Made by a program: the position numbers and the translations under genes | Source: Alistipes sp. | GTDB taxonomy: Bacteria > Bacteroidota > Bacteroidia > Bacteroidales > Rikenellaceae | Length of the DNA: 64,000 bases | Assembly: GCA_017465605.1 (NCBI GenBank) | Contig: JAFTVW010000054.1 | Span: 62,001 to 126,000 of the forward strand | Direction of reading: 5' to 3' | Notes under the pieces: model-generated | Told to the model about the DNA's origin: nothing | Databases searched by the model: none | What the model saw: only the letters and a program-made list of their open reading frames with translations | In this document: positions 18,414 to 24,712 of the stretch, piece by piece | Position numbering within the stretch: the stretch's first letter is position 1 | Layout of the letters: each line of letters starts with the position of its first letter

Positions 18414-18435
18414 TTCTCGAAAGATAGAGCAAGAG

Positions 18436-18466
18436 AGGTTTGGACCATTGGTTCAAACCTTTTTTT
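18436..18466 (+). terminator. Intrinsic terminator after rpsU
   Basis: AGGTTTG (18436-18442) pairs with CAAACCT (18454-18460), continued by an inner ACC/GGT pairing, and is followed by a run of T. Confidence 0.9.
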
Positions 18467-18534
18467 GCTTTTGTGTGGTGATGCAACAATTTCCATACAA
18501 TAATGTAGGAATTTACTTTATAAAAACGCACTGA

Positions 18535-18722
18535 AAAGATGCGAGATTGCGGCAGGATACACTCCCTCCCCCTTTGGGTGCTCCCTCTTGCCTTAGAGGG
18601 AGAGTTTTTTTTTGTTGTCGCATACTGCAAGGTCTTTAATAAGCGGTTGATTCCATCATTTTTACATAGACTTTGATACTATCACCGAAGGTTGGTTGAT
18701 GTAAAAATGCGGAATGACGTGT
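18535..18722 (+). repeat. Modular intergenic repeat, unit 1
   Basis: Three modules in order: a GCGGCA-containing lead; a CTCCCTC module (18561-18611) whose CTCCCTC arm pairs with GAGGGAG ahead of a long T run; and a covarying hairpin (18650-18715). The hairpin has outer stem ATTCC/GGAAT, a 3-by-2 internal loop, inner stem ATTTTTACAT (18658-18667) with ATGTAAAAAT (18699-18708), a 31-nt loop and a GACGTG end. Compared with unit 3 it lacks the GC-rich CCGCCACC hairpin. Confidence 0.75.
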
Positions 18723-18743
18723 GTGGAATTAAAATAACGCACC

Positions 18744-18867
18744 GATGAATTTTAGGGAACAGGGCAGACGGTGAAATTTCTGTAAAAAAACAGAGACCTT
18801 TTGATTGCTTCAAAAGTGCGAAGCATCTGTTTTAGGAAATTTCGGTGGCTGACCCCTAAAATTTATC
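18744..18867. other. Structured element closed by a 14-bp inverted repeat
   Basis: GATGAATTTTAGGG (18744-18757) pairs with CCCTAAAATTTATC (18854-18867), with one G-U pair. Inside, GCTTC and GAAGC form a sub-hairpin near 18807-18825, and a GAAATTTC motif occurs on both sides. It could be a small non-coding RNA or a miniature mobile element. No promoter was recognised. Confidence 0.5.
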
Positions 18868-18929
18868 ATTGCGCCGCTTTTTGCTCCACTTTTTACGGTT
18901 AAAAAGTGGAATAAAACAAAACTATACTA

Positions 18930-19068
18930 CAAGGAAAAACTTTGCGGCAAAGACACACTCCCTCCCCTTCGGGTACTCCCTCTAACTTAGAGGGAGAGTT
19001 TTTGAAGTTCTTTGGAAGGCGGTAAATATGAAATGACGTGAAAAAACCGCCACCCCGAAAGGTGGCGG
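18930..19068 (+). repeat. Modular intergenic repeat, unit 2
   Basis: It contains the GCGGCA lead, the CTCCCTC module (18957-19003), a short junction in which AAGGCGGT runs straight into AAATATGAAATGACGTG (19015-19040), and the CCGCCACC hairpin. Against unit 3 the whole central covarying hairpin has been removed between GCGGT and AATATGAAATG. Confidence 0.7.
19041..19068 (-). terminator. Minus-strand terminator after the orphan lipoprotein
   Basis: CCGCCACC (19047-19054) pairs with GGTGGCGG (19061-19068) around CCGAAA. A run of A at 19041-19046 becomes a T tail on the minus strand, 17 bp after the lipoprotein stop. It is also the last module of repeat unit 2. Confidence 0.8.
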
Positions 19069-19085
19069 CAATATACAAATGTAGA

Positions 19086-19619
19086 TTAATCCTCTTTTTC
19101 AAGATGAGACATAACCTTTTCCTCTAAAAATTCCTTTGTTTCGGGCATCATTAGATATATTCTAAGTTTGTCACCCTCCTTAAATTGAGTTATCTTATCG
19201 GGGGTGAATACCAATATACTATCGGGGACACACTCCAAAAAATAGTCTCGCGACAACTCTAAATTTGCCCTGTGGTGGTAGGGAGTAGCAGTGGAATTTG
19301 GGAATGTCGGTAACGAATACGAGTCCCAACCATTCTTATCAAATACAAATATTTCGTTTCCACCGCCATAAAGTAAATCCCATCTATTCTTAATTATGAC
19401 CTTACCATTCTCTATTCTGCCTACACGTTCACTACCGCCAGCATACCAACAAGGGGTATTTACCAAGATTTCCTCAAAGTCGTTGGGCAGTGCTGCGGGG
19501 ATATTCCACTCCGCCCAATTAGTTGACACCTGCTGTGGCTCTTCGGGAGTCTGCTCGTTGTCCTTTGCGCAAGCTGCTAAAACCATAGCAACCAACGCGC
19601 TCAAAATAATCTTTTTCAT
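19086..19619 (-). CDS. Lipoprotein of unknown function
   Basis: A 177-residue protein with a lipobox signal MKKIILSALVAMVLAAC (Cys17), then an acidic Gln/Glu/Pro linker and a compact domain rich in Trp and Tyr with phrases WAEWNIPAALP, YGGGNEIFVFDKNG and DKLRIYLMMPETKEF. I do not recognise the family. It is a lone minus-strand gene inside a plus-strand region and has modular repeats on both sides, which suggests a late insertion or a rearranged site. The terminator below it comes from repeat unit 2. Confidence 0.7.
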   Translation of the reverse strand: MKKIILSALVAMVLAACAKDNEQTPEEPQQVSTNWAEWNIPAALPNDFEEILVNTPCWYAGGSERVGRIENGKVIIKNRWDLLYGGGNEIFVFDKNGWDSYSLPTFPNSTATPYHHRANLELSRDYFLECVPDSILVFTPDKITQFKEGDKLRIYLMMPETKEFLEEKVMSHLEKED

Positions 19620-19770
19620 CTGCTATGAATTTTAAGTTTAACAATATTAAAAAATGAACTCTGATTTCTCGATTGCAATTTACAAATAAATTTTGAATAA
19701 AATTTGAAATCTTCACGAAATTTCATTCATAGTGTTCAAATTTGCCATACATTTATACAAATAAATAGTC

Positions 19771-19836
19771 ATTCCGCATTTCTTTATTGGTGAGGTTCAG
19801 AGAAGTAATTAGCGTCTATAAAGAAATGCAGGGAAT
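19771..19836 (-). repeat. Inverted copy of the covarying hairpin
   Basis: Read on the minus strand, it has ATTCC, CT, GCATTTCTTTAT, a 30-nt loop starting AGAC, ATAAAGAAATGC and GGAATGAC. The outer ATTCC/GGAAT and GGAATGAC flank match unit 1, but the inner arms have a different sequence and are still perfectly complementary (12 bp). Confidence 0.75.
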
Positions 19837-19851
19837 CTACCTTATAATAAT

Positions 19852-20017
19852 CCACGCTCCAAAGAATAACTTTGCTGCAAATGCAATTCTCTGCAAGGCC
19901 GTAATTAAGCGGTAGATTTCAACATTTTCGCATAGATGTTTATTCTATCACCGCTGGTCGTTGATGCGAAAATATGAAATGACGTGGTAAAAAACCGCCA
20001 CCCCGAAAGGTGGCGGT
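19852..20017 (+). repeat. Modular intergenic repeat, unit 3
   Basis: Order: an ACTTTGCTGCAAA lead, the GCAAGGCCGTAATTAAGCGGT segment, a covarying hairpin (19916-19980) with outer ATTTC/GAAAT and inner ATTTTCGCAT/ATGCGAAAAT around a 30-nt loop, then GACGTGG and the CCGCCACC hairpin (19989-20017) with a minus-strand T tail. It lacks the CTCCCTC module. No minus-strand gene ends here, so the terminator-like hairpin is an orphan. Confidence 0.75.
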
Positions 20018-20062
20018 GCTGAAAAATTGGGTGTAAATTTTGTTGTGGTCGAAAATTTGTAT

Positions 20063-20070
20063 TATCTTTG
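20063..20070 (+). promoter_or_regulatory. rho promoter -7 box
   Basis: TATCTTTG, with TTTG at 20039-20042 twenty bases upstream, is a full Bacteroidota promoter. It gives a leader of about 80 nt carrying two GATRTCGTTAA direct repeats. Confidence 0.7.
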
Positions 20071-20155
20071 TGATGTCGTTAAGAGGTTTGCGATATCGTT
20101 AAAATAATCATTCGGTTATTTTTCAATCAGCAGAAATAATATAAACAGAGAATAT

Positions 20156-21898
20156 ATGCAAGATTTTGATGCCCTTGAAGGCAAGACATTGGCCGAACTA
20201 AGAGAAATCGGTAAAGTGCTTGGTGTGAACGATACTACGCTTCGCAAGAAGGAGTTGTTGGATAAAATTATTGAGGTAGCTACGGGTGCTCCCGTTGCAG
20301 ATTCGCAGGCGACTGAGCCTGTTTCAGCCGAGGCCGCAGCTCCCAAAAAGCGTGGACGTCGCCCCAGAATGAATACCCTTCGTGTGGAGGAGAATAAGCC
20401 GATGGGCGAAGCCGCTCGTGTTGATTCCGATGCTGAGGTAAAGCAACCTCAGAACGGAACATTCGCCGTCGAAAAGCCTTTGGAGAGTGTGAATAATATC
20501 GCTACACCAGCCGCAGAGGCTATATCTGCTGCACCTGCACCAACTGCAAATCCTGTGGCCGAGCAGCCAAAGCGTCGTGGTCGTAAGCCAAAGGCGTTGA
20601 AGGAGCAGGAGGCTCGTGAAGCGGCCGAGCGTGAGGCTATGGCGCGTAATGCGGCAGCTCAGAGCCAAGCTGAGAGTGAGGCAGTGTCGGATTCTGCCAA
20701 TGAGGTGAAGGAGACTCCAACTGTCGAAGAGCCCGCGCAGGTGCGTGTTGAGGCGCGTCGTGAGCCAGTGCGTGAGAGCTTCGCAGGTGAGGTTATAGGT
20801 GAGGGTGTTTTGGAGGTTATGCCCGATGGCTACGGATTCCTTCGCTCGGCTGATTACAACTACTTGAACTCTCCCGACGATATCTATGTGTCGCCTTCGC
20901 AAATCAAACTCTTTGGTCTGAAACCCGGAGATACCATCAGCGGCGTGATTCACCCACCAAAAGAGGGTGAAAAATATTTCCCGCTCATTCGTGTTAACGA
21001 AATCAACGGTTTGCAACCGGAGTATATCCGTGACCGTGTGCAGTTTGAGTATATGACTCCGCTGTTCCCCAGCGAGAAGTTCAACTTGACGGGCAAGGGG
21101 CATAACAGCCTATCGAATCGAGTAGTGGATTTGTTCTCGCCAATCGGTAAGGGTCAGCGTGGCTTGATTGTGGCTCAGCCCAAGACGGGTAAGACAATGC
21201 TCTTGCAATCAATCGCTAATGCTATTGCCGATAATCACCCTGAGGTCTATATGATTGTGCTTCTGATTGATGAGCGACCAGAGGAGGTTACCGAAATGGC
21301 CCGTAATGTGAAGGCCGAGGTGGTTGCATCGACCTTCGATGAGCAGGCTTCGCGTCACGTTAAGGTGGCCGAGATGGTGCTTGAAAAGGCAAAACGTATG
21401 GTGGAGTGTGGTCACGATGTGGTGATCTTCCTCGACTCTATTACCCGTTTGGCGCGTGCCTACAACTCTGTTCAGCCTGCGTCGGGTAAGGTGCTTTCGG
21501 GAGGTGTTGATGCCAATGCATTGCATAAGCCAAAGCGTTTCTTCGGTGCGGCTCGTAATACCGAGGAGAAGGGCTCGCTTACGATTATCGCTACGGCCTT
21601 GATTGATACAGGCTCGAAGATGGACGAGGTTATCTTTGAGGAGTTTAAGGGTACGGGTAATATGGAGTTGCAGCTCGACCGCAAGCTCTCTAATAAGCGT
21701 GTATATCCTGCTGTTGATGTTATTTCGTCGGGTACACGACGTGAGGATTTGTTGCTCTCGCGCGATGTGATGAATCGTACTTGGGTGATGCGTAAATACC
21801 TCTCTGAGATGACTACTGTTGAGGCGATGGAGTTCTTGCAGAAACAGATGGGAATGACGGAGAGTAATGAGGAGTTTCTTGCCACAATGAACCAGTAG
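20156..21898 (+). CDS. rho: Transcription termination factor Rho
   Basis: Hexameric RNA helicase that ends transcription. The 580-residue protein is longer than E. coli Rho (419). It has an N-terminal Rho-N/SAP-like segment (1-45), a 160-residue Ala/Glu/Arg-rich disordered insertion (about 50-210) with two AT-hook-like motifs (KKRGRRPR near 64 and KRRGRKPK near 140), a cold-shock RNA-binding domain (about 215-290, [13 protein letters not shown]), Walker A AQPKTGKT at 340-347, [13 protein letters not shown] and the Q/R-loop region [11 protein letters not shown]. Such insertions are known in Bacteroidota Rho, where in B. thetaiotaomicron the region promotes condensates. It has its own promoter and terminator. 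Confidence 0.97.
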
Positions 21899-21967
21899 AA
21901 ATTGTATAGCAAGTATCTTTTGGCGTCTTGCTCGTCCTCGAAATCCTCATTTACGTCGAGTAAACTG

Positions 21968-21999
21968 CGGTTTCTCGGACATCGGCAATCCCCAAAATA
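21968..21999. repeat. Intergenic direct repeat, copy a
   Basis: It shares GGACATCGGCAAT and the flanking CGGTTT and CCCAAAA with copy b at 22122-22152, about 150 bp away. The surrounding sequences differ, so the element is dispersed rather than a simple tandem. Confidence 0.65.
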
Positions 22000-22121
22000 T
22001 ATCTTGCTCTCCAAATTCTATAATGGGGTAGAGTGGTTGTCGTAAAACGGTCGCAAGACTGCGCGTTCAGCTCCTGCGAGCAGCCTCAAAATAGCTTACC
22101 TTATACTATTTTGCAGGAAGT

Positions 22122-22152
22122 CGGTTTTTGGACATCGGCAATTCCCAAAAAT
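22122..22152. repeat. Intergenic direct repeat, copy b
   Basis: Second copy of the GGACATCGGCAAT repeat, with a slightly shorter CGGTTTTT lead and CCCAAAAATA end. It is preceded by AAAATAGC and ACTATTTT arms that can form a separate hairpin. Confidence 0.65.
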
Positions 22153-22184
22153 AGTTCTTATAATACGACTTTCCATTGAGTTGG

Positions 22185-22219
22185 GGCTACTAACGCAAAT
22201 TGTTAGTAGCCTCTTTTTT
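22185..22219 (+). terminator. Intrinsic terminator, distal to rho
   Basis: GGCTACTAAC (22185-22194) pairs perfectly with GTTAGTAGCC (22202-22211), followed by TCTTTTTT. It lies nearly 290 bp beyond the rho stop, so the repeats in between would be transcribed. Confidence 0.88.
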
Positions 22220-22363
22220 GTCTGTATGGATTCTTTTTCGAGGGTTTGTGCAAAATATATTTTTTGTTTTTGATTGAATTGTTTTGTGAAATAAGCTTTT
22301 TTTTCTTAATTTTACAATGATTTTGACCTAAACAGAATTTTATCAACCTAAAACTTTTAATAT

Positions 22364-23578
22364 ATGGACAGACGAGATTTTCTGAAAGTATTTGCAGCAT
22401 CTGCTGCATTCTCTATGGTAAAGCCTTTGGGTGTGATGGCAGGCGAGAAGATTAATCGCCCAATTCGCATCGGTTTTATCGGTACTGGTAATCGTGGTAC
22501 TTATGGCGTTATTACATCTATGAGCCATAATAACAACGTGGAGTTGTATGCTTTGGCTGATTTGTTCCGCGACCGTATTGATAAGGTGCTTCCTCATTTG
22601 AACAGCCTCAATAAGGCGAAGGGTTTGCCTAATATCGCCGAGAAGAATATCTATGTTGGTAAAGATGCTTACAAGCAGCTCTTGAAGGACGACAATGTTG
22701 ATGCTGTCGTAATTGCAACTCCTGCTTATGCTCACCCATTCATTTTCGAGGCTGCTGTTAAGGCTCACAAGCACGTTTATTGCGAGAAGCCAGCTGCTCC
22801 CGATGCTTACGGTGCATTGCGTATGATTAAGGCTGCTGAGGGTGTGAAGGACTTGTCGCTTGTGATGGGATTCCAAGTACGTCACTCTTCGGCTTATAGC
22901 GAGATGATTCGTCGTGTTCATAATGGCGATATCGGTAAGATTGTAGCCGCTCAGCTCTACTATAACTCAGGAGGTGGCAGTGGCAAGAAGCCCGCAGTCG
23001 AGGACGATGAGTTCCGTATCCGTCACCACTTCCAGTATTTGGAGCTTTCGGGTGGTACATTCCACGATCAGGCTATCCACGTTATGGATATCTGCCGCGA
23101 GGTGATGCAGTCCAATCCTATCTATGCTATCGGTCATAGCAGTCGCAAGGGTTACAAGTATGAGTATGGTAATACCAATACCAACTATCAGGTACTCTAT
23201 AAGTATCCAGATGATGTCAATGTAATGGTTCAGCAGACATCTGTTGGTGCAGCATCGGGTGGCGTTGTGGCTCGTTTCTTTGGTGAGAAGGGTACTGCCG
23301 AGGCTAAGTATTCAGGCGGTGTATTCATCACAGGCCCAAATAAGTGGGATTCAGGTGTTGACAACGCTTTGGGTGATGCCGATCCTAACAAGGGTAGGTC
23401 GTTTATCGATAGCATTGTGAGCGGAAACTACATCAACCAGATTGAGGCTGGCTGTAACTCTACTCTTATGTCGGTATTGGGTCGTGAGGCTTGCGAGAAG
23501 GGTGAGAAACTCACTTGGGACGAGCTTATCAAGAGCAAGCAGCGTTATGACAAGCAGCCTGATTTAAGTAAGTTTTAA
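22364..23578 (+). CDS. Tat-exported Gfo/Idh/MocA-family oxidoreductase
   Basis: A 404-residue NAD(P)-dependent sugar oxidoreductase. MDRRDFLKVFAASAAFSMV is a clear twin-arginine signal, so it should fold with its cofactor and be exported to the periplasm. The Rossmann motif is IGFIGTGNRG; the EKP motif is intact (VYCEKPAAP), and GTFHDQAIHVMD carries the likely catalytic His. It is only distantly similar to the enzyme at 13000. It is followed 17 bp later by a TIM-barrel isomerase/epimerase, a pairing typical of sugar or cyclitol oxidation and of 3-keto-glycoside cleavage. The substrate is unknown. Confidence 0.9.
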   Translation: MDRRDFLKVFAASAAFSMVKPLGVMAGEKINRPIRIGFIGTGNRGTYGVITSMSHNNNVELYALADLFRDRIDKVLPHLNSLNKAKGLPNIAEKNIYVGKDAYKQLLKDDNVDAVVIATPAYAHPFIFEAAVKAHKHVYCEKPAAPDAYGALRMIKAAEGVKDLSLVMGFQVRHSSAYSEMIRRVHNGDIGKIVAAQLYYNSGGGSGKKPAVEDDEFRIRHHFQYLELSGGTFHDQAIHVMDICREVMQSNPIYAIGHSSRKGYKYEYGNTNTNYQVLYKYPDDVNVMVQQTSVGAASGGVVARFFGEKGTAEAKYSGGVFITGPNKWDSGVDNALGDADPNKGRSFIDSIVSGNYINQIEAGCNSTLMSVLGREACEKGEKLTWDELIKSKQRYDKQPDLSKF

Positions 23579-23595
23579 TCGTTAATTAGTTGGTT

Positions 23596-24498
23596 ATGAA
23601 GATTTTAAGTAGAATATTGTGTGCGATGTTGCTCGTTGCTGGCATCGCTACTGCCGAGGCGCAGAACGTAACAGTTGGTTTGTTGGGCGGTATGGGTAAA
23701 GACCCAGAGGCTACATTCAAGAAGTTGCACGATGCAGGCTTTAAGGCTTGTCAGACAGGTTACAGCGATAATTGGACTCAGAAAGATGCCGATTTGCTCA
23801 AAGAGTTGCAGGCTAAGTACGATATCAAAATCAGTACTCTTATGTGCCTTACCCCTAATTGCCGTTGGAATTTCACCGAGGGCCCATCGACTATCGGTTT
23901 GGTACCACCATTGAACAGAGTGAAGTATTTGGATTTGCACAAGCGTGCAGTTGATTTCTGCGCAATGGCTGGTATTCCTGCTATGCACTCTCATTTTGGT
24001 TTTATTCCCGAAGAGCCAACAAACGAGTTGTATCCTGGCTTTATTGAGGTGATGAGAGATTTGTGCCAGTATGCAAAGGATAAGGGTGTGATGATCTTCT
24101 GCGAGACAGGTCAAGAGACTCCCACTACACTTATTCGTGCTATTCAGGATATTGGTACAGGTAATATCTTTGTGAATTGCGATACTGCCAATTTGATTCT
24201 TTATGGTAAGGCTAACCCAGTAGATGCAATCTATCAGTTTGGCCCATTGCTCAAAGAGTTGCACATCAAGGACGGTAAGTATCCAACCAATCCTTACTAT
24301 CTCGGTCGTGAAACTAAGATTCCAGAGGGCGATGTTGATTTCCCAGGTGTAGTGAAGGCTTTGGCTGAGATTGGTTTCGAGGGTGTTATGACTATTGAGT
24401 GTGAGCTTGGTGGCGACAACTCAGAGTACATTGCAAAGACCAAGAAGTATCTCGAAGATTTGGTAAAGGATATTTACAAAAAGCATTATAAGAAATAA
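23596..24498 (+). CDS. Exported sugar phosphate isomerase/epimerase-like TIM-barrel protein
   Basis: A 300-residue AP-endonuclease-2-like TIM barrel with a Sec signal (MKILSRILCAMLLVAGIATAEAQ, cleavage likely after AEA). The metal-binding acidic/His set is visible: FCETGQE, NCDTANL, KELHIKDG and IECELGG. Periplasmic relatives next to Gfo/Idh/MocA enzymes act on keto sugars as epimerases or lyases. I chose the ATG at 23596 over a TTG two codons earlier. It forms an operon with the upstream oxidoreductase. The activity is inferred. Confidence 0.88.
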   Translation: MKILSRILCAMLLVAGIATAEAQNVTVGLLGGMGKDPEATFKKLHDAGFKACQTGYSDNWTQKDADLLKELQAKYDIKISTLMCLTPNCRWNFTEGPSTIGLVPPLNRVKYLDLHKRAVDFCAMAGIPAMHSHFGFIPEEPTNELYPGFIEVMRDLCQYAKDKGVMIFCETGQETPTTLIRAIQDIGTGNIFVNCDTANLILYGKANPVDAIYQFGPLLKELHIKDGKYPTNPYYLGRETKIPEGDVDFPGVVKALAEIGFEGVMTIECELGGDNSEYIAKTKKYLEDLVKDIYKKHYKK

Positions 24499-24535
24499 AC
24501 CTTTGTTTCTTTGCTATACAACTTCTGAAAACTAT

Positions 24536-24571
24536 GGGTCTGTCTAACAAGTATGTTGGCAGGCCCTTTTT
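24536..24571 (+). terminator. Intrinsic terminator after the isomerase gene
   Basis: GGGTCTGTCTAACA and TGTTGGCAGGCCC pair with two small bulges, followed by TTTTT. The CTGTCTAAC/GTTGGCAG core recurs in the hairpins at 37425-37508. Confidence 0.8.
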
Positions 24572-24712
24572 AATTCATATTTTTAATCTCTCTTATCCAA
24601 AACCAAATCCCGATAAGGGTTTTGTCTTTGCAAAAGCTGGAAAAATACGAGCCATTTCAAACTCTTTTTTGAAAGATGCCAAAGTCTATTTTTCTATTCA
24701 GAAAAAAGTTCG

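Follow-up and report, generated by a model that had tools for sequence, protein, structure and literature searches.

Intergenic mosaic elements of Neisseria containing dRS3 mix CGTC-tagged hairpins with unrelated repeat modules. In the same genus a small GIY-YIG nuclease, Ssn, has reportedly been described in 2025 together with an abundant CGTC-type repeat, NTS. The CGTC-tagged REP superfamily is present in Bacteroidetes and was reported to lack a dedicated transposase; in Neisseria, many CGTC-1 repeats are embedded in mosaics together with repeats of other kinds (Di Nocera et al., 2013, PMC3733652). A second group, the GTAG REPs, is served by RAYT-type transposases, and TnpA-REP of E. coli needs both GTAG and the stem bulge (PMC8266576).

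The window analyzed here is a 64,000-nt stretch of a draft genome of Alistipes sp. (contig JAFTVW010000054.1, positions 62,001 to 126,000). Its hairpins share with the CGTC-tagged superfamily the unpaired CGTC tag, the AT stem start, HH (tag-out) dimers and an intergenic position, but they have a bulged stem of ~16–17 bp and a loop of ~33 nt instead of 8–9 bp stems with 4–5 nt loops, their tail is CTAC instead of CCA, they carry a GTAG-like tag on the opposite strand, and a partner gene was found for them (superfamily characters from PMC3733652). With GTAG REPs and REPtrons they have in common GTAG directly before a bulged hairpin and inverted pairs (PMC8266576 and PMC6006769), whereas a Y1 transposase gene was not found in the 37 genomes of this genus. 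The likeness to the Neisseria dRS3 mosaics, CGTC-tagged hairpins lying among unrelated modules between genes, is one of description and not of sequence, and the present hairpins are long and come from another phylum. Ssn and NTS, as they are said to occur, are alike in joining a small GIY-YIG protein to a CGTC-type repeat; here, however, inverted hairpin pairs and gene-less derivatives are present. Through the Ssn work the link between GIY-YIG proteins and such repeats may already be partly in print; it was not found in the open-licence literature searched.

The region 18535–20017 of the window had been described in a preliminary description as three units built from shared modules, each lacking a different one. 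All three hairpins of ~74 nt that it placed there were recovered at their positions, and the module layout held with two exceptions: unit 3 has GCTGCA instead of GCGGCA, and in unit 2 nothing of the central hairpin is left but its 3' foot. The features are as follows.

18547–18610, plus strand: lead GCGGCA and CTCCCTC hairpin of unit 1, ending in a T-run (module A).
18645–18718, plus strand: right-type hairpin of unit 1, GTTG-ATTCC..ATTTTTACAT / ATGTAAAAAT..GGAAT-GACG.
18727–18921, plus strand: module C, a repeat of ~195 nt with its own 25-nt inverted ends (18738–18762 and 18849–18873).
18939–19005, plus strand: lead and second CTCCCTC hairpin (module A) of unit 2.
~19024–19040, plus strand: 3' foot of the right-type hairpin of unit 2, body missing (AAATATGAAATGACGTG; repeat D4).
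19046–19068, plus strand: CCGCCACC hairpin (module E), 3' of the minus-strand ORF 19086–19619.
19768–19841, minus strand: left-type (inverted) hairpin of unit 3, GTAG-ATTCC..GCATTTCTTTAT / ATAAAGAAATGC..GGAAT-GAC.
19842–19910, no strand: spacer between the two hairpins of the unit 3 dimer, without module A.
19911–19983, plus strand: right-type hairpin of unit 3, GTAG-ATTTC..ATTTTCGCAT / ATGCGAAAAT..GAAAT-GACG.
19995–20017, plus strand: second copy of the CCGCCACC hairpin (module E).

The only complete dimer in the window is 19768–19983, an inverted pair of 216 nt closed by the hairpin at 19911; unit 1 has no left hairpin, and of the right hairpin of unit 2 a foot remains. Beside the one complete pair, the window contains eroded, recombined copies. 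The outer tag of the inverted hairpin is degraded to AGTC, and this hairpin is identical to the letter in the sister genome SIG166 (L147), which shows 82% identity to the Alistipes genome over rho and about 88–92% over other stretches.

Several features of the surroundings were also recorded. Elsewhere in the genome, many complete dimers have module A in their spacer; CTCCCTC-type hairpins were seen without REP hairpins in a relative (L145, ~1100), on which account module A may be an independent repeat. Module C is often positioned after a right-type hairpin, and a stretch resembling it by eye lies upstream of the hairpin in G032 (L141). Between the two module E hairpins lies the 177-aa ORF 19086–19619 (minus strand), which we take from its sequence to be lipoprotein-like; the stretch flanking it on the 5' side is found again in L031 and in SIG166 (L270). 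A block of ~6 kb (18415–24676) with rho lies between the bS21 and HU-like genes, with repeats at its left edge; in SIG166 (L267, L268) the HU-like gene directly follows the bS21 gene and rho is on another contig. The names bS21, rho, HU-like, metG and glycyl-tRNA synthetase are our own presumed assignments from the sequences.

Read from the GTAG side, the hairpin is made up of GTAG, ATTCC, a bulge, CATTT, an inner stem, the loop of ~33 nt, the stem partners and GACG, the stem having 16–17 bp with the bulge and the tail being CTAC. The stem was immediately preceded on its 5' side by GTAG in 43 of 59 hairpins of the own genome and in 46 of 51 hairpins of relatives, the remainder carrying GTTG, GTGG, GTCG, GAAG or ATAG. 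Of the aligned hairpins, 53 of 59 in the own genome and 46 of 51 in relatives carried the GACG/CGTC tag, with GACA in three of each set. AT occupied the first two stem positions in all 58 own and all 51 relative distinct hairpins, a regularity to which the search patterns themselves contributed. The left hairpin repeats the design of the right one in inverse orientation, so that the unit has terminal inverted repeats. The bulge asymmetry was 1 nt in 55 of 75 own hairpins and 0 in 17. Among 52 parsed hairpins of relatives (one of which looks spurious), 44 had 2 nt on the GTAG side, a figure partly imposed by a pattern that allowed only 2–3 nt against 1 nt, and the same asymmetry appears also in matches to the covariance model.

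In order to compare pairing with chance, the stems were set against shuffled partners. Among 58 distinct own copies, 97.0% of 928 pair cells were standard pairs, compared with a mean of 88.8% when partners were shuffled and 38.6–50.6% when the arms were slid by 1–3 columns. Two-sided changes occurred at 7 of 16 pairs (6.2 in shuffles, reached by 134 of 500) and in 96 cells (26.1 in shuffles, reached by 0 of 500). Whole stem blocks differ at once between subfamilies, and since the changes are confined to few subfamilies they do not count as independent events. In the 51 hairpins of relatives, 95.7% of cells were paired and 9 of the 17 pairs showed two-sided changes, a count that averaged 5.8 in shuffles and was reached by none of 500. 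For 34 of these 51, which came from pattern-search loci, mainly the inner pairs are free evidence, because CATTT/AAATG and most of the outer stem were dictated by the pattern. The inner stems TTTTCACA, TTCTGTAT, TTCCGCA, TTGCGTAT and TTATGCAT each have a matching partner. The preliminary description had noted, from three hairpins, inner stems that differ while keeping their partners and an outer stem alternating between ATTCC/GGAAT and ATTTC/GAAAT; both observations were borne out in those hairpins, and the compensating changes extend to the larger sets. Its suggestion that structure is selected rather than sequence is likewise supported, in that the stems compensate while tags and asymmetric bulge largely persist. 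G-U pairs made up only 6 of 928 own and 5 of 864 relative cells, and with G-U so rare a DNA structure fits better than an RNA structure.

Complementary stems could also be kept without structural selection by quasi-palindrome correction, that is, template switching in replication, with the copies spread by recombination and duplication. The simultaneous change of whole stem blocks between subfamilies and the rarity of G-U intermediates are both what such correction would produce. The bulge and the tags, however, persist in most copies beside changing stem pairs, whereas correction would tend to erase the bulge, and the association with GIY-YIG genes described below would be left unexplained. 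We therefore consider this explanation improbable.

The hairpin family is present far above chance. A covariance model (R1) trained on 59 hairpin copies from the own genome gave 92 matches there, with a best E-value of 3.4e-17 (150 of 1205 first-look candidates scored); the 92 include the 59 training hairpins, and one or more palindromic places were counted twice, once for each strand. The three hairpins of the window thus belong to a dispersed family with further copies. The genome is a 2.3-Mb draft in 64 contigs, and the DNA of the region matches it at 92 places; contig ends are frequent among these, which indicates that the repeats probably break the assembly. A DNA search with the whole dimer in 61 genomes returned the own genome and one weak match in a relative only, and for this reason the covariance model was used. 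Under stricter filters, R1 matched 4 of 36 relatives of the same genus and none of the 24 genomes from elsewhere in the order. Across 84,980 species genomes, a pattern scan that required exact matches to one sub-pattern and possibly left out the own genome returned 43 stretches (12 isolates), all from Alistipes or Rikenellaceae MAGs; ruminants are named in the titles of the RGIG genomes among the matches.

Other repeat forms were seen as well. In a 93-nt chimeric right hairpin the inner stem is replaced by GAGTTTTACAACTC and the following bases (L032:26–118, L044:2844–2936 and others), and a second, terminator-like hairpin family, TCTAAC..GTTAGA with varying outer stems, lies near many elements (L035:2790–2820, L040:4871–4911 and others). 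At L045 (contig C15), positions 1–2642, a gene that is presumably a glycyl-tRNA synthetase is flanked by inverted copies of one repeat arm, a possible inversion.

The complete unit consists of an inverted left hairpin, a spacer with or without module A and a right hairpin, the CGTC tags pointing outward. There are 25 distinct complete tag-out dimers in the own genome (35 entries, some read on both strands), of 215–219 or 257–295 nt; the pattern sought the tag-out order only, and a module map agrees on the order. Other hairpins of this genome are single or in fragments. A fixed target-site duplication was not evident at the dimers: the words shared between flanks averaged 4.97 against 4.36 in re-pairings (0 of 200 reached it), a difference that may reflect AT-rich flanks and elements partly counted in both directions.

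The elements are intergenic. For 23 of the 47 clusters mapped, simple ORF calls gave a gene on either side, and of these 7 lie between convergent, 12 between co-directional and 4 between divergent genes. An intergenic position of this kind would also suit a structured RNA, such as a terminator or a processing or stability signal, under selection in the transcript and with only incidental spread. In addition, module A resembles an intrinsic terminator and points along the genes in 7 of 9 co-directional cases. Such an RNA would not be expected to show so few G-U pairs, conserved tags outside the stem or inverted dimers; hairpins of the same design enclose nuclease genes elsewhere, and Rfam gave no match at gathering score within the window. 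A family of structured RNAs, one of the two possibilities raised in the preliminary description, is consequently disfavoured, and we assign it a low probability. The other, a family of non-autonomous mobile elements, gained support.

If the units are mobile DNA, one candidate for the moving enzyme is a RAYT-type Y1 tyrosine transposase that reads GTAG and the bulged hairpin, as for classical REPs and BIMEs. The GTAG directly 5' of the stem (43 of 59 and 46 of 51), the bulge and the inverted, BIME-like pairing all speak for it. A search for the Y1 transposase domain PF01797 in the own and 60 other genomes, however, gave 0 of 37 in the genus, many of these being incomplete drafts, against 19 of 24 in other genomes of the order; in a control, 5 of 14 named genomes were positive. 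Moreover, around 10 Y1 loci there were no GTAG hairpins with a 7-nt exact arm, no hairpins in a stem-based scan, and YGTC hairpins at 0 loci with a 6-bp exact arm and at 2 with a 5-bp arm. The linked RAYT-type transposase that had been proposed was thus not found in the genus; RAYT was rejected as the partner because PF01797 is missing from all 37 genomes searched there, and the RAYT reading is very improbable.

A different gene was found beside the hairpins in the sister genome. At the 3' end of metG in SIG166, a 94-aa ORF with a GIY-YIG domain (E 1.4e-16) lies 10 bp before an inverted hairpin pair. The corresponding metG-like 3' end carries no element in SIG175, where the intergenic region is short, this gene and a dimer in SIG166, and the mosaic in the own genome. 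At the L052 site, too, the element is missing in a relative, RGIG7724. Nine of the 37 genomes of the genus encode relatives of the SIG166 protein, and Y7, Y18, R28 and E65 are invariant in 12 GIY-YIG proteins.

Small GIY-YIG genes are associated with tagged hairpins in the genus and at further loci of the phylum. YGTC hairpins with a 5-bp exact arm lay within 350 bp of the gene at 12 of 12 genus loci, at 30 of 30 phylum loci, the best-scoring of 162 positive genomes among 296, and at 13 of 20 lower-scoring phylum loci, compared with 3 of 19 control ORFs and 2 of 10 Y1 genes. This lenient arm length was adopted because stricter scans missed pairs visible by eye, and it was chosen after looking at the genus and phylum sets, so that the 20-locus replicate alone was scanned once the length had been fixed. 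L186, which prompted the GIY-YIG idea, is part of the genus set; L219, a broken GIY-YIG match, is not. The replicate loci, two of them cut at a contig end, were picked from the matches listed before their flanks were seen; matches with E above 1e-8 were left out altogether, as were the stronger L203, L206 and L216 from other genera of the order. As controls, a single ORF per region was taken by a simple call at a distance of ~20 kb, which was possible on 19 of the 20 replicate contigs.

Lengthening the exact arm to 6 bp weakened the signal (6 of 12 genus, 14 of 30 phylum and 6 of 20 lower-scoring loci, against 3 of 19 control ORFs); the replicate then hardly exceeded the controls by loci, with 32 matches against 3. 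The stem-based scan found hairpins at 7 of the 12 loci of the genus and at 13 of the 30 of the phylum set. Among all 64 tags of 3 nt, GTC ranked first in all three GIY-YIG sets, the other 63 averaging 0.94 (genus), 3.81 (phylum) and 2.30 (replicate) loci. By distance, 101 hairpin matches of the phylum set fell within 350 bp and 24, 23 and 18 in the next three bands.

The own draft genome contains no small GIY-YIG gene by protein search; PF01541 gave one ORF above cut-off, of 606 aa and presumably UvrC, and one sub-threshold match. As a negative this is weak, since these repeats are where the assembly breaks. In G014, R1 hairpins were present but no GIY-YIG match was obtained. Within the genus, GIY-YIG genes occurred in 3 of 5 genomes with R1 hairpins against 6 of 32 others, numbers too small to weigh. 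Compared with RAYT, a small GIY-YIG nuclease gene is the better partner.

The relationship between gene and hairpins was followed in relative G013, whose GIY-YIG element spans L214:1442–1919 and whose two flanking hairpins carry the same 2-nt bulge. At least 58 matches to this element lie outside it in the same genome (16 to the left end, 42 to the right end), and none of them contains the coding part (40 of 74 first-look candidates scored). The ends recur at at least 42 other places, 15 of them with both ends, and five places that were inspected consist of the left end followed by the right end, as short dimers without the gene. In G007, the ends of the L207 element occur in 20 further matches, again without the gene. 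The L207 element carries ATCTACCTTAT on the left and AAGCGGTAGATT on the right, like the own dimers, and L197 and the own family have the 15-nt tail GGAATCTACCTTATA exactly in common. The pattern of internally deleted derivatives was seen for the related G013 element; for the own family it is suggested only by the end motifs shared with L207 and L197.

The same association would be expected if a resident GIY-YIG nuclease used the hairpins as cutting sites that limit or steer DNA uptake, the hairpins having spread by other means. This explanation, too, fits the co-occurrence of gene and hairpins, and Ssn with NTS in Neisseria would, from what is reported of it, be a precedent. In G013, however, a coding part in single copy whose ends recur at so many other places looks like an element with its derivatives, and outward hairpins stood on both sides of the GIY-YIG gene at 5 of 12 genus, 15 of 30 phylum and 6 of 20 replicate loci, compared with 0 of 19 controls. 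We regard a resident nuclease of this kind as rather unlikely.

Overall, it is probable, though well short of certain, that the units of the window are REP-type DNA elements, namely non-autonomous, internally deleted derivatives of small mobile elements that encode only a GIY-YIG nuclease of ~90 aa. In such a system, each strand would fold where the region becomes single-stranded, on the lagging strand, during DNA uptake or in a cruciform, and the nuclease would read the unpaired tag and the bulge and cut beside the hairpin. The freed ends, or recombination begun there, could then bring the pair, copied or moved, to a new place between genes. Tag, bulge and pairing would be under selection but not the stem sequence, so that the stems would drift by compensating changes. 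In the own genome, mosaics would then have formed by recombination between the family and other repeats, and the window would hold partly deleted examples of them. Both the cutting and the mobilisation by the nuclease are inferred from the arrangement of genes and repeats, and the copies in the own genome would have been served by an enzyme that is now missing or unassembled. The more general proposal, that CGTC-tagged REP hairpins have their dedicated mobilising enzymes in small GIY-YIG nucleases, is offered tentatively, as a serious possibility rather than an expectation. Under it, a 90-aa nuclease would recognise a tagged and bulged hairpin with drifting stems in single-stranded DNA and, by transposition or homing, spread gene-less pairs through the genome.

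The hairpins provide a clean case of structure that is kept in DNA while the stem sequence drifts. The association with GIY-YIG genes was found in the genus and at 43 of 50 further phylum loci (5-bp arm), together with an element that has gene-less derivatives. This association and these derivatives make the question of what moves CGTC-tagged REPs directly testable.
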